From: Peltaster fructicola
Taxonomy: Eukaryota > Ascomycota > Dothideomycetes
NCBI GenBank assembly: GCA_001592805.2
Contig: CP051142.1
Coordinates: 62,001 to 126,000 of the forward strand
Length of the DNA: 64,000 bases
Direction: 5' to 3'
Shown: positions 43,231 through 54,767 of the stretch, piece by piece
How positions within the stretch are numbered: position 1 is the first letter of the stretch
How the letters are laid out: each line of letters opens with the position of its first letter
Notes under the pieces: model-generated
Told to the model about the DNA's origin: nothing
The model's database searches: none
Seen by the model: only the letters and a program-made list of their open reading frames with translations
Made by a program: the position numbers and the translations under genes

Positions 43231-45888
43231 CTACGACTGGCACAGCTTAAAAGCATGCCGGAAGGATCGAATGTTCCGTGCGCGGTGTGCGACTCGTGCG
43301 GCGGAGCTGAACTGATCCTGCGAGCGATCGAGAGCAGAATAGCAGACAGCCAGCAAGCAAGCCATTGCTGCTGGTAGTGTTGAGCACGTGAGCAGAATGA
43401 CCAGCAGAAGCGCCATGATTGGAAGACCTCTCCTGCCGTGGTGATCCCGCACCCAAAAGCGATCAATTGTCTGATACTCCTTGTATCGCTGGGTTGGTGC
43501 TGCTTTGCTGCGCGAGTCCTGCTCGTCGTGGCTGTCGATCGATCTGGTCTCGATGCTGGCCTGCTTATTGCTCGTGCATTGCGGACGAACACAGTCAGAG
43601 GGTTCCTGCTCGTGATCTGAGCCCTGTGGTGTCTTGCTGCTGCCATATAGGTCTGCAGAGGATGCATGTGGGTGTATTTCGAGCAACATAGGATTGGTTC
43701 GGATCGATCTTGTCGATAGTTGACAGCCACCGGTGAGATCCTTGGCGAAGGACATCTCTCTTCGAAGCCTGAAGAGGTCGCTTGATGGACTGGTGCATCG
43801 CTTGGCGTTTGCACCGTGTCGCGCTGCCTGTCTTCCAAGATGTGACGTTGCGAATCCTTCGCTTGTTGGTGCCTGAGTATAAGCCTTCGAAGCTGCAAAT
43901 AACCCAGGATTCTCAAGTGCCGAGATATATCCACGTGCAGTGCAGGTTCGCGAGTCTTCCTGAAGGATCGCTTGAGTTGTGGCCAATCCACTTCCGGTGC
44001 CTGAGCCATTGGGCCTCGATATGGCCGCCGTGCCGTGGCTGAGAGGCTTGCGAATCGATAGACTGCTGACATCAGTGTGTATAGATAGTCCTCGTTGGAA
44101 GCAAGATCGTCGTGGCGTCAAAGGAATATCCGCGCGAATAGCAGAGCCCAGACTTGTTGTATGGGTCAATGCTGCCGGTGGATGTAGGGCTTCGTCTTGA
44201 GTACCAGAAGCTGCCGATTGTTGTAGCCACGATAGCACATCTTGTCGCCGTAGCATCGAGCGTGAGTCTGCAGTAGTGTAGAAGTGTTCCACCAGCTGTC
44301 GTCTGGTCGCATGTGCGTTTCCATTGCCTGCTAGGGCTACCACGCGGTCGGACCTGTCCAAGCTGACGGAAAGAGAGACTTCTTTGTCGCTGACTGTTGG
44401 GTGGTGTATTTCGTCCCTTTCTCCGACAGCACTTGACTCGGTGAACAACGGGCTGATTAAGCCTGTTGCGTAGCCTTGTACTGTCGCCGCTTGCTCTCGG
44501 TGTAGTGCTCTCTGTGATTGTAATGTTCGCTCAGTGAGTGGTACTTGCTTGGTATCCAGTAGTTCATGTGGCAGTAGTAGGACTTGCGACTGTGGTTCTG
44601 GCGGTGCATATGATCCTCTTGCTGTACGGAGTAATAGGTCCTGTCCTTGTGCAACGAGGTCTTGGTTCTCGATCTGAATATCTTGTACCACTTGCAGTCC
44701 ATGTAGTAAGCCAGCGGGTTCTTGTAGTAACACATCGTTTCCACTCGCAGCAATGTCTCGTTTCCTGCTTTGTAGTCCTTGTAGCACTTGTAGTCCTTGT
44801 AGTAAGCCAGCAGCTTCTTGTAGCCGTTCATCGTGGCCAGATGCAACGATGCCCTGGTTTTTGCGTTGTGGTTCCTGTAGTCCTTGTAGTCCATGTGGTC
44901 CATGTAGTAAGTCGGCACCTTCCTCTGACTCCTTGATCAGTGGTGTGTCGCTAGCTAATCCTACTTGTGGGCGTGCGTTTCCAGGAACATGCGGCAGCAG
45001 CTCTTGCAGACTAGCAGAGCTAAAGCAAGATGCATAATCGATAGCAGGTTGGACAAGCCACTGAGGATCGACACAATCGATGCCATGGAAGAAGCTGTTG
45101 ATATCGTCTGTCTGGAATAAGGTGTCGTAGTCCATCATATCGTCTGACAGGAGAGTGAAGTCATCGAAATCCGTGCTATCTAACGACACGATGTTGTTGT
45201 CGACAGCGTCGTAGCCTGACTGCTGTGCAGACTGGACTTGGTGGCTTTGTTGTGCGATCGTCTGCCTAGCGGAAGGCTTGGCGACTCGAGCGTTCGTGGG
45301 TGCAGCGACTGACGTGACATGGTCAGTCGCTTGATTATGGGTGCACTTTCGCTTCCGCTTCGCGCACTTGTCACAAGCCTTCATGACACGACGCTTTCTA
45401 TACTCGATCTTCTCAGCTTCAGTCATCTTTCTTCGCAGACGCTGTTTTGGTTGTTCCGCAGAGTTCAGACTGAAGACACCAGTCATATCCGCGATAGCTG
45501 GAGTGCTGTTCTGTCGAGAGCTGGAGCATTGTGTGGCAGAATAGTCTTCGAAGGACGGTGTACGCAAACCAGCGATCTCTGGACTCGTGTTTGCTGTAGA
45601 GCTGATCGACGGGTCTGAGAACAATCGGTGCCAGGGAGAGGTTGCGTCGATTGAGGAGACGACAGGAGAAGCTGTCTGACCATCTAGCTCCTGCTTCAAG
45701 AACTCGATGGAAGCATCACGCATGCGCTCAGAATGTGTCTTGAGATGCGGAAACTTGGCTCGCAGAGCGTAGAACAGCTCATCAGATTCCTTGGCTGGGA
45801 AGAAGGCCAATGGCGCAGTGAGATCACCGGCTTCACGGTAGATGAAGTAGGTGGGAGCTGACATATCGAAGTCGGTCGTGAAAGCCAT
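43231..45888 (-). CDS. Large protein with half a zinc cluster and hydrophobic C-terminus
   Basis: Putative regulator, 885 aa, no intron. The only recognisable domain is a basic stretch EYRKRRVMKACDKCAKRKRK followed by C, with Cys172, Cys175 and Cys182: the first half of a Zn2Cys6 cluster. The second half (three more Cys in the next 30 residues) is absent; the next residues are THNQATDHVTSVAAP. I recall the RRVMKACDKCAKRKRKCTHN block as conserved in ascomycete proteins, so it is probably not decay. Acidic patches (TDFDDFTLLSDDMMDYD) could activate transcription. Residues 327-425 hold three Leu/Gln-rich repeats. Near 821-853 a 30-residue hydrophobic segment (LPIMALLLVILLTCSTL) suggests membrane anchoring, with a basic tail after it. 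Confidence 0.75.
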   Translation of the reverse strand: MAFTTDFDMSAPTYFIYREAGDLTAPLAFFPAKESDELFYALRAKFPHLKTHSERMRDASIEFLKQELDGQTASPVVSSIDATSPWHRLFSDPSISSTANTSPEIAGLRTPSFEDYSATQCSSSRQNSTPAIADMTGVFSLNSAEQPKQRLRRKMTEAEKIEYRKRRVMKACDKCAKRKRKCTHNQATDHVTSVAAPTNARVAKPSARQTIAQQSHQVQSAQQSGYDAVDNNIVSLDSTDFDDFTLLSDDMMDYDTLFQTDDINSFFHGIDCVDPQWLVQPAIDYASCFSSASLQELLPHVPGNARPQVGLASDTPLIKESEEGADLLHGPHGLQGLQEPQRKNQGIVASGHDERLQEAAGLLQGLQVLQGLQSRKRDIAASGNDVLLQEPAGLLHGLQVVQDIQIENQDLVAQGQDLLLRTARGSYAPPEPQSQVLLLPHELLDTKQVPLTERTLQSQRALHREQAATVQGYATGLISPLFTESSAVGERDEIHHPTVSDKEVSLSVSLDRSDRVVALAGNGNAHATRRQLVEHFYTTADSRSMLRRQDVLSWLQQSAASGTQDEALHPPAALTHTTSLGSAIRADIPLTPRRSCFQRGLSIHTDVSSLSIRKPLSHGTAAISRPNGSGTGSGLATTQAILQEDSRTCTARGYISALENPGLFAASKAYTQAPTSEGFATSHLGRQAARHGANAKRCTSPSSDLFRLRREMSFAKDLTGGCQLSTRSIRTNPMLLEIHPHASSADLYGSSKTPQGSDHEQEPSDCVRPQCTSNKQASIETRSIDSHDEQDSRSKAAPTQRYKEYQTIDRFWVRDHHGRRGLPIMALLLVILLTCSTLPAAMACLLAVCYSALDRSQDQFSSAARVAHRARNIRSFRHAFKLCQS
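44614..44910 (-). repeat. Three coding repeats of 32-35 residues
   Basis: Within the half-zinc-cluster protein, residues 327-361, 362-393 and 394-425 share the pattern LLxGLQ(V)xQ(G)(L)Q then a charged spacer, ASGxDxxLQExAG. At DNA level there are nested 9-bp repeats of TTGTAGTCC on the plus strand. The helices would be amphipathic and Leu/Gln-rich. Confidence 0.75.
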
Positions 45889-47149: not shown

Positions 47150-48212
47150 ATGCAACACTTTGCTCCTCCTCCTACCTCGACGGGCACATATCCGCCTCCA
47201 CCAACAGAGAAGACCGCAGAGCCGATTCCTCAATTTGCTCCTCCACCTACCTTTGATGGTCCTCCCATGCTACCACCACTCGCAGACGGTAACGTTGGCA
47301 ACTCACACAGGAAAGAGCTGGAGCTCCCATACTACCCAGGTCCTCCACAGGAAGGCGTACCACATGAGAAAGAGCACGAGCACCACGAACACCACGACCA
47401 CACACCTGTAGACACATCTCTGCCGGCGAACCTCGATCATGGTGCGCCACTACAAGACCACTTCATTGGAGCGAGTGCAACCATTGACGACGTGGGCACC
47501 TTCAATGGCGGTAGCTATCGAATAAGCCATCGAGACAGCAACTCCATTGTGACCATCCAGCTTGCCGTCGGTTGTCCCGTTACTGTGAAGCCGGGGCTAA
47601 TGATCGCCATGTCACCCACCATGACAGTCAAGGGAGCAATTAAGTTCAGCTTCAAGAAGCTGCTAGCAAGAGGCGAGATCGCCCATGCGACATATACCGG
47701 GCCAGGAGAGCTGCTTCTCGCACCACACTGCTTCGGGGACATCACAAACATTCGTCTCACTGGCGAAGACTCGTGGATGGTCGGTAGAGATCAATTTCTA
47801 GCCTGCACAAGCGGTGTCACCAAGGACTACAAGGCACAAAGTCTAAGCAAAGCCATGTTCTCTGGAGAAGGTCTCTTCGTCTACAAGATCGGTGGAGTAG
47901 GTTTGCTCTGGTTGCAGAGTATGGGAGCCATCATACGCAAGGATGTGAGTATAGCTGCGGTCGAACCAATCATTGTGCTGATTGAAGTGGTAGCTGCAAG
48001 ATGGGGAGAAGTACATCATCGACAACGGACACCTTGTCGCCTGGAACTGCGAATATGTCATCCAAAGAGCCGCATCCGGTGGTCTGGTGTCTAATTTCGC
48101 AGCAGGAGAAGGTCTGGTCTGCAGATTCACTGGTCCCGGTACAGTGCTCATGCAAACGCGCAACCCTGTACAAGTAGGTGCATACTTGGCAGCACACGCG
48201 GCTACTGTGTGA
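47150..48212 (+). CDS. AIM24 / DUF124-domain protein
   Basis: Contains the AIM24 (DUF124, TRAP-like fold) domain found in yeast Aim24, a mitochondrial inner-membrane organiser, and in bacterial proteins. Exons 47150-47944 and 47994-48212 with a 49-nt phase-0 intron give 337 aa; joining restores [20 protein letters not shown]. The domain runs from about residue 115 ([19 protein letters not shown]) to the end ([20 protein letters not shown]). Before it lie a Pro-rich region ([17 protein letters not shown], with a second [11 protein letters not shown]) and a His/Glu cluster ([13 protein letters not shown]). No mitochondrial presequence is seen, so location is open. Confidence 0.9.
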
Positions 48213-53783: not shown

Positions 53784-54767
53784 ATGTCTCGTCAACCCAA
53801 GATCAATAGAATATCGCCATTGAGTGCAGACGAGGCCAAATGGACTGAGCTTCGCAAGATCGAGGTACACTGCACGCACATAGAAGAAACCTCGAATACA
53901 GGCTGACTATCAACAGTGGACTGATCAGGCATGGTCGCCGATGATCTCCTAAGACACTACTGATAGCATCCAGCAAGGCAAGAACCGAGTTTGGGAGGCG
54001 GCAGCACGACGAACACGAAAGTCAACTGGTGTAGATGCTGTAGCAATAGCACCTATCCTACGCCATCCAAAAGCTCCCAGCACCGTCATCCTGCTCCAAT
54101 ACCGACCACCAGTTGAGGCATTCTGCGTCGAGTTCCCTGCTGGCTTGATTGACGAAGGCGAGTCGCCCGAGCAGGCCGCCATTCGAGAGCTCAAGGAAGA
54201 AACCGGTTACGAAGGCAAAGTGCGTGGTATCCAGGATGTCTCGCCCGTGCTGTCCAAGCAGCCAGGCATGACAACTGCAACGATGATGGTACGTCTTACT
54301 GACTTCGATTTACCTCGCAGGTAGTGGATGTCAGCCCAACTATCGTTGCGGACCCTGGTCTGACCAACGCAAACATGCAGGTAGGCATCGATCGCTGTCT
54401 TCTTCGAGTAACTATACCTCAACACAGCGCAAAAGCTGATATTTGCAGATGGTAACTGTCGAAGTCGAGCTGGGCGAAGGGGATGAACTTCCTGAGCAGC
54501 ATCTCGATGAAGGCGAAAACATCGAACGTCTGGTTGTCCCATTGTCTGATCTTTACAGCAAGCTGAAAGGTATGCTCCGACCCTTCTCTTTGATTGTCAA
54601 CCTGTCACACTGGCCGTCCCTGACCAAACACTGCACAGAGCTGTCGAAGGAGGAGAACAAGATCGTTGATGCTCGGTAAGTCTAGATGATGGCAGTAGTT
54701 GACGGACGCTGACAGCCTTAGTCTTTACCACTGGGCTCTTGGCTTGCACTGGAGCAAGAATCTCTGA
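53784..54767 (+). CDS. YSA1: Nudix ADP-ribose pyrophosphatase with alternative exons
   Basis: Hydrolyses ADP-ribose to AMP and ribose 5-phosphate, clearing a reactive NAD breakdown product. Constant exons are 53784-53864, 53917-53928 (12-nt microexon, WTDQ), 53974-54219, 54449-54569, 54639-54675 and 54722-54767. Between the third and fourth there is a choice: exon b 54321-54380 (total 200 aa) or extension a 54220-54288 (203 aa); both keep frame. The Nudix box is complete: GLIDEGESPEQAA then IRELKEETGY (residues 88-110). Downstream are MVTVEVELGEGDELPEQHLD and KIVDARLYHWALGLHWSKNL. The intron after the microexon has a GC donor; the others are GT-AG. Start MSRQPKINRISPL fits homologues. Confidence 0.88.
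54220..54380 (+). other. YSA1: Pair of homologous alternative exons a and b in YSA1
   Basis: Extension a (54220-54288, 23 codons) reads VRGIQDVSPVLSKQPGMTTA then TMM. Exon b (54321-54380, 20 codons) reads VVDVSPTIVADPGLTNANMQ. Over 18 aligned residues 9 are identical (DVSP, PG, T, A, M). Donors: GTGCGT at 54220 (skips a), GTACGT at 54289 (ends a), GTAGGC at 54381 (ends b). Acceptors: CTCGCAG ending 54320 (b) and TTTGCAG ending 54448 (shared). Only 32 nt separate the end of a from the start of b, too short to splice, so a and b cannot readily be joined. Reading from a straight on meets a stop at 54322-54324. Confidence 0.75.

Follow-up and report, generated by a model that had tools for sequence, protein, structure and literature searches.

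A gene predicted to encode a YSA1/NUDT5-type Nudix ADP-ribose hydrolase in Peltaster fructicola contains two neighbouring, related versions of its X-loop, segments a and b, in an arrangement where splicing would place one or the other in the enzyme. The gene lies in a stretch of 64,000 nucleotides that we call the window. Our reading, to which we give a probability of roughly 0.55, is that the segments are mutually exclusive X-loop copies derived from a tandem duplication, with b dominant and a a selected minor form. At the level of sequence, the duplication, the common origin of the copies, their conservation and their exclusive layout are well supported. We infer that mRNA and enzyme of the a form are made and that this enzyme has a changed specificity.

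A predicted ADP-ribose hydrolase gene with two X-loop segments

In our own model, the gene extends from start codon to stop on the forward strand at 53784-54767. When joined through segment b (the b form) it has seven coding exons and a single open frame of 200 residues, in which the Nudix box was recognized by Pfam PF00293 (NUDIX) with 62.5 bits. The closest solved structure to the product is human NUDT5 (E 8.4e-47). A search of the Peltaster genome for a second YSA1/NUDT5-type copy found none, and the gene is single copy. The predicted product is a fungal YSA1/NUDT5 ADP-ribose (ADP-sugar) hydrolase.

All of the following features are on the forward strand. Exon 3 carries the Nudix box (53974-54219) and terminates in EETGYEGK. 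Segment a (VRGIQDVSPVLSKQPGMTTATMM; 54220-54288, 69 nt, 23 codons) is continuous with this exon and opens with the donor GTGCGT. It is followed by a spacer of 32 nt (54289-54320) containing the a-form donor GTACGT, a branch-like CTGAC (54299) and the CAG acceptor of b. Segment b (VVDVSPTIVADPGLTNANMQ; 54321-54380, 60 nt, 20 codons) has an ancestral-type X-loop and aligns with the MDPG stretch of human NUDT5. An intron of 68 nt (54381-54448; GTAGGC...CAG, branch-like CTGAT at 54436), whose acceptor is common to the a and b forms, separates b from the common downstream exon (54449-54569; MVTVEVELGE...). The initial annotation had described two in-frame segments after the Nudix box at 54220-54288 and 54321-54380, and these coordinates, the frames and the splice dinucleotides hold.

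The deposited P. fructicola protein AMS68_005418 (P0032) corresponds to the b form. It uses segment b and is identical to the product of the window gene except in exon 3, where 36 residues are missing and two different ones are present. According to the available part of PMC7181583, it derives from a BRAKER annotation with RNA-seq.

In the available part of PMC5389931, the X-loop follows the Nudix motif at a distance of about 17 residues, contains the proline of ADP-ribose diphosphatases and makes contact with the X moiety, here the terminal ribose. Segments a and b correspond to this loop, which meets the substrate. The loop tripeptide is Gln-Pro-Gly in a versus Asp-Pro-Gly in b. The proline lies 15 residues after the Nudix box in b, within the 15-16 sought for an ADP-ribose proline, and 18 residues after it in Peltaster a. 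The replacement of Asp by Gln next to this proline could change recognition of the X moiety.

Segments a and b resemble each other more than any other part of the sequence searched

Aligned without gaps, segment b and the C-terminal 20 residues of a share nine identities and have a BLOSUM62 score of 50. Among 282,753 stop-free 20-residue windows read in six frames from 264 kb of the Peltaster genome, this score against b was reached only by a and by b itself, so the similarity claimed for the two segments stands. We also scanned the same 264 kb for similar adjoining 18-residue stretches (offsets of 54-169 nt, a score of at least 42, low-complexity filter) and obtained eight regions. The a/b pair, with an offset of 92 nt, is the only one of the eight whose offset is not divisible by 3; the other seven resemble what we take to be WD40, zinc-finger, ankyrin, cysteine-rich or low-complexity repeats. 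As expected of duplicated exons, the two segments are homologous neighbours (9/20 identities) in the same phase (phase 0) and of similar length (69 and 60 nt).

Using a profile built from 32 fungal outgroup homologues, we obtained 328.3 bits for the b form, 309.5 for the a form and 267.1 for a form with neither segment. When a was shuffled 200 times, the mean was 281.3 and the best 293.2 bits. The a form thus scores above every shuffle, indicating that a fits the place of b. The score of a form with both segments against this profile (330.1 bits) was set aside, since it may combine two partial matches. The Pfam NUDIX scores were 62.5 bits with b, 62.3 with a and 54.5 with both.

The spacer is probably too short for an intron

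The joined exons confirmed that both segments can be spliced to 54449 in phase 0. Four junctions can be drawn, removing 101 nt (b form), 160 nt (a form), 229 nt (neither segment) or 32 nt (both), and the first three products are all in frame; the form with neither is a third possible product, joining 54219 to 54449 with both segments skipped. Segment a had been presented as a free-standing exon. It instead extends the Nudix-box exon at its 3' end, and the a form amounts to use of the later donor together with skipping of b. Reading through a had also been thought to give a stop at once, but the TAG (54322-54324) comes as the 12th codon past a.

We examined intron lengths by scanning 264 kb for donor-branch-acceptor triples, taking donors GT[AG]NGT only. 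Triples of 44-55 nt were in excess (66 observed versus 22.5 expected), with a sharp peak at 45 nt, and those of 28-43 nt showed no excess in the same 264 kb (23 observed versus 26.7 expected). The donor-to-branch distance was 28-37 nt in 55 of 76 candidates of 44-60 nt; in the spacer it is 10 nt. The median P. fructicola intron is 50 nt in the part of PMC7181583 available to us. A 32-nt intron linking a to b, which has good donor, branch and acceptor motifs, was considered and rejected, there being no excess of triples below 44 nt in this genome sample. Because the spacer has 32 nt and the intron minimum is near 44 nt, steric constraints should keep a and b from being used together. The earlier statement that the gap is too short for an intron is thus supported by length statistics, and the 32-nt gap and the stop on read-through are indirect evidence that inclusion of both segments would be prevented. 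The mutually exclusive layout that had been proposed survives in part: the duplication is true and old and the arrangement in Peltaster is exclusive, but in most relatives with a the two copies abut without a spacer.

The duplication is shared with members of two orders

We pooled 196 different homologues from three protein searches (the best 120 of 1,985 matches, all 29, and the best 120 of 968); the second and third were run with a-type queries and so are biased towards intact a. Among these 196, pattern matching placed 133 as b only, 46 as tandem a and b sharing an open frame, 5 as a only, 8 as a followed by other letters and 4 as neither. Zymoseptoria, Dothistroma and Septoria are among the species with b-only models. 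An a-type copy was thus found in 59 of the 196 homologues listed, several of them from the same species, and in 46 of the 59 it is contiguous with b, with no spacer. Holders of a include Hortaea and Recurvomyces (Mycosphaerellales), Cladosporium and Cryoendolithus (Cladosporiales), Coniosporium and Peltaster (Dothideomycetes incertae sedis), and also Friedmanniomyces and Meristemomyces. We take the a-bearing sequences from a lichen metagenome bin (P0028) and cork oak (P0070) for contaminants.

The pair sought in related species was therefore present, in 46 tandem homologues. For each of these, the nearest copy in another homologue was a for a (46/46) and b for b (46/46), which argues for one old duplication. 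These comparisons support a true and old duplication that members of two orders and Peltaster possess.

The concern that a might not be conserved in relatives was not borne out. Mean pairwise identity at positions 3-18 of distinct copies was 62% for a (52 copies) and 85% for b. The control, in which translation was continued in frame through the intron that follows b, gave 9% (positions 3-10, 29 tails). In 50 distinct copies of a, with P0172 and P0196 left out, residues S5, L8, S9, P12, G13, T15, N16 and A17 are each conserved at 84-100%. Segment a retains the S, P, PG, T and A of b and has Gln for Asp. At residue 11, a has Gln where b of the tandem homologues has Asp (46/46); Gln at this position formed part of the search pattern for a, but when the b-only homologues were checked, none turned out to have a tandem copy in which a different residue takes its place. 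Copies of a are 20, 21 or 23 codons long, differing by whole codons, and that of P0129 has one extra residue. A few copies have decayed: the end of a is lost in P0172 and P0196, P0165 has QLG and P0182 is much diverged. The displacement of QPG three residues further on, previously described for a, applies to Peltaster and its metagenomic relative P0171; in the other a copies read, QPG is at the place of the DPG of b.

Splice signatures and spacers in relatives

Donors in relatives were deduced from encoded residues; a scan of viral contigs and one of prokaryote contigs for DNA of relatives yielded loci of phage or bacterial type. Segment a starts with V[CSRG] in 59 of 59 homologues, permitting a GTNNG donor via residue 2, and in P0188 this V[CSRG] is the start of an apparent intron ahead of a. 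A GTNNG-compatible start occurs in none of the 46 b copies of tandem homologues and in 2 of 133 single-copy homologues. The true intron after b served as a positive control; V[CRS] was present in 29 of the 36 tandem homologues with enough tail, the other seven having VY, VQ, VL, AS (3) and AN. The end of a is mostly CAG-compatible, Q being the residue there in 43 of the 50 distinct copies. Residues at the duplication ends, read from protein only, allow AG|GT in relatives (K|V, Q|V).

Where a is out of frame with b, V[RGS] comes next in all six homologues with intact a (P0147, P0164, P0167, P0170, P0171 and P0188), which fits a donor straight after a. Of the two without the end of a, P0172 (V-W) fits a donor and P0196 (F-C) does not. 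A two-frame test located b behind a spacer of 4 nt in P0147 (20/20 residues), 8 nt in P0164 (13/13), 16 nt in P0170 (60/60, continuing through to the exon beyond) and 32 nt in P0171 (19/19); with 200 shuffled targets the best matches were 8, 8, 23 and 11, respectively. P0172 and P0196 each matched at 15/20, and the tails of P0167 and P0188 are too short. P0171 matches Peltaster in having a 23-codon a ending in MM and an inferred 32-nt spacer.

Since a and b abut in 46 of 59 homologues, the simplest alternative to b there is keeping both. In the spacerless tandem homologues b lacks a donor-like start codon (0/46), making a clean exchange unlikely. We see the strictly exclusive layout in Peltaster and in a few other lineages.

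Transcript-like sequences mostly contain b

We treated as cDNA-like those proteins from contigs shorter than 1,300 bp that run into the next exon, a property also expected for a gene without that intron; a hand count of 25 short-contig proteins listed gave 19 that qualify. These comprise 17 with b, one with neither segment (P0051) and one, P0170, that keeps both segments and a 16-nt spacer which puts them out of frame. Neither the a form nor an in-frame form with both was found among the 19. The six other short contigs (P0129, P0137, P0139, P0144, P0150, P0167) stop at or inside the intron that comes next. The a form is present as five database gene models only (P0013, P0024, P0028, P0033 and P0070). 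In Hortaea, contiguous a-b sequences (P0012, P0150) occur beside a short contig (P0015) lacking exactly a, the species of P0015 and P0150 being assigned from their sequence, which suggests that a may be cut out there as a 60-nt intron. AlphaFold2 modelling of the Hortaea form with both segments gave a mean pLDDT of 83.7, with residues 115-132 (a) below 50 and b modelled with strands, a result biased by an alignment in which most rows are without a. In this model, a protein containing both segments would carry a loose insert.

Discussion

We propose that a tandem duplication copied a 60-nt X-loop stretch in a common ancestor of Mycosphaerellales, Cladosporiales and Peltaster. The upstream copy a would open with a splice donor, making it removable like an intron and leaving the old loop b. 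In Peltaster, the 32-nt spacer would put the donor of a and the acceptor of b too close for mutual splicing, so that joining donor 54220 to acceptor 54320 would give the b enzyme and joining donor 54289 to acceptor 54448 the a enzyme. The b enzyme would be the main, ancestral form, and a a minor alternative with Gln for the Asp of the loop. Segment a would have been kept through selection on protein sequence, and it probably alters recognition of the X moiety. More tentatively, and with some doubt, we suggest that fungi of at least two orders have long exchanged the X-loop (Asp-Pro-Gly versus Gln-Pro-Gly) by splicing and so may obtain two specificities from one gene, in a system born from duplication with stages running from abutting copies through spacers of 4, 8 and 16 nt to an exclusive pair at 32 nt.

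Other explanations of segment a account for part of these data. It could be a coding intron (exitron), usually removed to give b and sometimes kept to give both loops with no clean exchange, the Peltaster spacer having merely ended the form with both. The 46 of 59 a-bearing homologues listed with contiguous, in-frame copies agree with this, as do several deposited models that keep both (P0003, P0006, P0011, P0012), the donor-like start and mostly CAG-compatible end of a (Q in 43/50) and, in Hortaea, the contiguous sequences beside one lacking exactly a. We nonetheless think it unlikely. The two segments are out of frame with each other in Peltaster, P0147, P0164, P0170 and P0171, where a donor-fitting V[RGS] still follows a; none of the 19 cDNA-like contigs has both in frame; and a in the Hortaea model falls below pLDDT 50, albeit with a mostly b-only alignment. 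Out-of-frame copies lend themselves to a further account, in which a is a poison segment whose inclusion adjusts the amount of enzyme through decay of the resulting frameshifted or loopless mRNA, and whose conservation serves RNA signals. P0170, a transcript-like sequence that keeps both segments out of frame around its 16-nt spacer, P0051, which is without both segments, and the stop met on read-through in Peltaster could all be so explained. This is distinctly improbable given conservation that goes beyond donor and acceptor (S5, L8, S9, P12 and G13 at 84-100% of 50 distinct copies), length changes of whole codons (20, 21, 23) and the 46 homologues with both in frame.

The predominance of b in 17 of 19 transcript-like sequences and the decay of a in P0172, P0196 and P0182 would also be expected if a were a relic, a tandem duplicate turned into an ordinary intron that is always removed and whose coding look is merely inherited. 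Residues specific to the a type are common to many taxa, and a has 62% identity versus 9% for the true intron after b; we regard a relic as very unlikely. A chance resemblance, for which one could point to merely nine identities in 20 residues in this window, is scarcely credible, as no other among the 282,753 stretches of 20 residues scores equally and the pair recurs in 46 tandem homologues; the scan of these stretches, the neighbour-pair scan and the relatives together rule it out.

Mutually exclusive X-loop copies, the reading that we prefer, can be compared with several known systems. An exitron is an exonic intron, a stretch within a single coding exon that is in frame, free of stops and able to be spliced out. 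In the zero-spacer relatives (46 tandem homologues, at the residue level) a is exitron-like in being stop-free, a multiple of 3 and splice-compatible at its ends; unlike an exitron, it copies the neighbouring loop, and in Peltaster the 32-nt spacer with its in-frame stop removes the retained form. The gene shares with human NUDT5 and yeast YSA1 the Nudix box and, in b, the DPG stretch after it (human NUDT5 matches the b form with 163 bits and the a form with 150), and differs from both in having a second, Gln-Pro-Gly copy of the X-loop that splicing is predicted to reach. The X-loop varies between enzymes in the available part of PMC5389931, whereas here two versions occur within one gene. In animals, exons Ab and 3 of U2AF1 are mutually exclusive duplicated exons, with steric interference among the causes (PMC5224494, in part). 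Like these, a and b are tandem homologous segments of the same phase, with use of one at a time predicted here from the layout. The Peltaster pair is unlike them in being fungal and 32 nt apart, in that a is an exon extension, and in that use of the a form is predicted. The Rogers model describes intron gain via tandem duplication of an AGGT segment, with ATP2A1 and fission-yeast cases (PMC4974935, in part). There too a duplicated coding segment gains splice signals and its removal restores the old protein, but the new 'intron' of Peltaster still encodes a conserved variant of its source piece.

Mutually exclusive exons make up less than 0.2% of events in human fungal pathogens and are possibly irrelevant in fungi, according to the part of PMC6176087 available to us. 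In Schizophyllum, 171 genes were reported under a definition that does not require homology, mostly in untranslated regions (PMC5034255, in part). The titles and abstract openings that we searched, which for some topics covered part of the matching papers, do not name this exon pair, although it may already have been published. The pair is old and shared and would exchange the proposed substrate-choosing loop of Nudix enzymes in a core enzyme of ADP-ribose metabolism, a kind of switch hardly known from fungi. Because relatives show stages from a bare tandem duplication to a sterically exclusive pair, the birth of such a system is traceable. The exchange can be tested with already existing RNA-seq; for Peltaster, the available part of PMC7181583 gives GSE121872 as deposited.

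Other observations

RNA structure was considered as a switch and rejected, the fold of the whole region having a z of -1.98 and 8 of 200 shuffles folding equally well or better. An 8-base complementary pair, GCAACGAU at the end of a (54277-54284) and AUCGUUGC in the middle of b (54342-54349), would enclose the spacer; we did not rely upon it. P0188, a Cladosporium-like metagenomic sequence, has an apparent stop-free intron of 63 nt (fitting GTNAGY...GCTAAC...CAG) between the Nudix-box exon and a, and segment a may be a separate exon there. Elsewhere on the forward strand of the window, the scan for neighbouring pairs brought up in-frame tandem protein repeats, one cysteine-rich at 44699 (offset 96 nt) and one proline-rich at 47150 (offset 75 nt). 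The intron ahead of exon 3 (53929-53973, 45 nt, GCATGG...CAG) appears to be GC-AG; AMS68_005418 does not use it, and the 36 exon-3 residues absent from that protein are conserved. Our gene model also contains a micro-exon of 12 nt (53917-53928) flanked by two short introns and encoding WTDQ, residues that occur in relatives as well.
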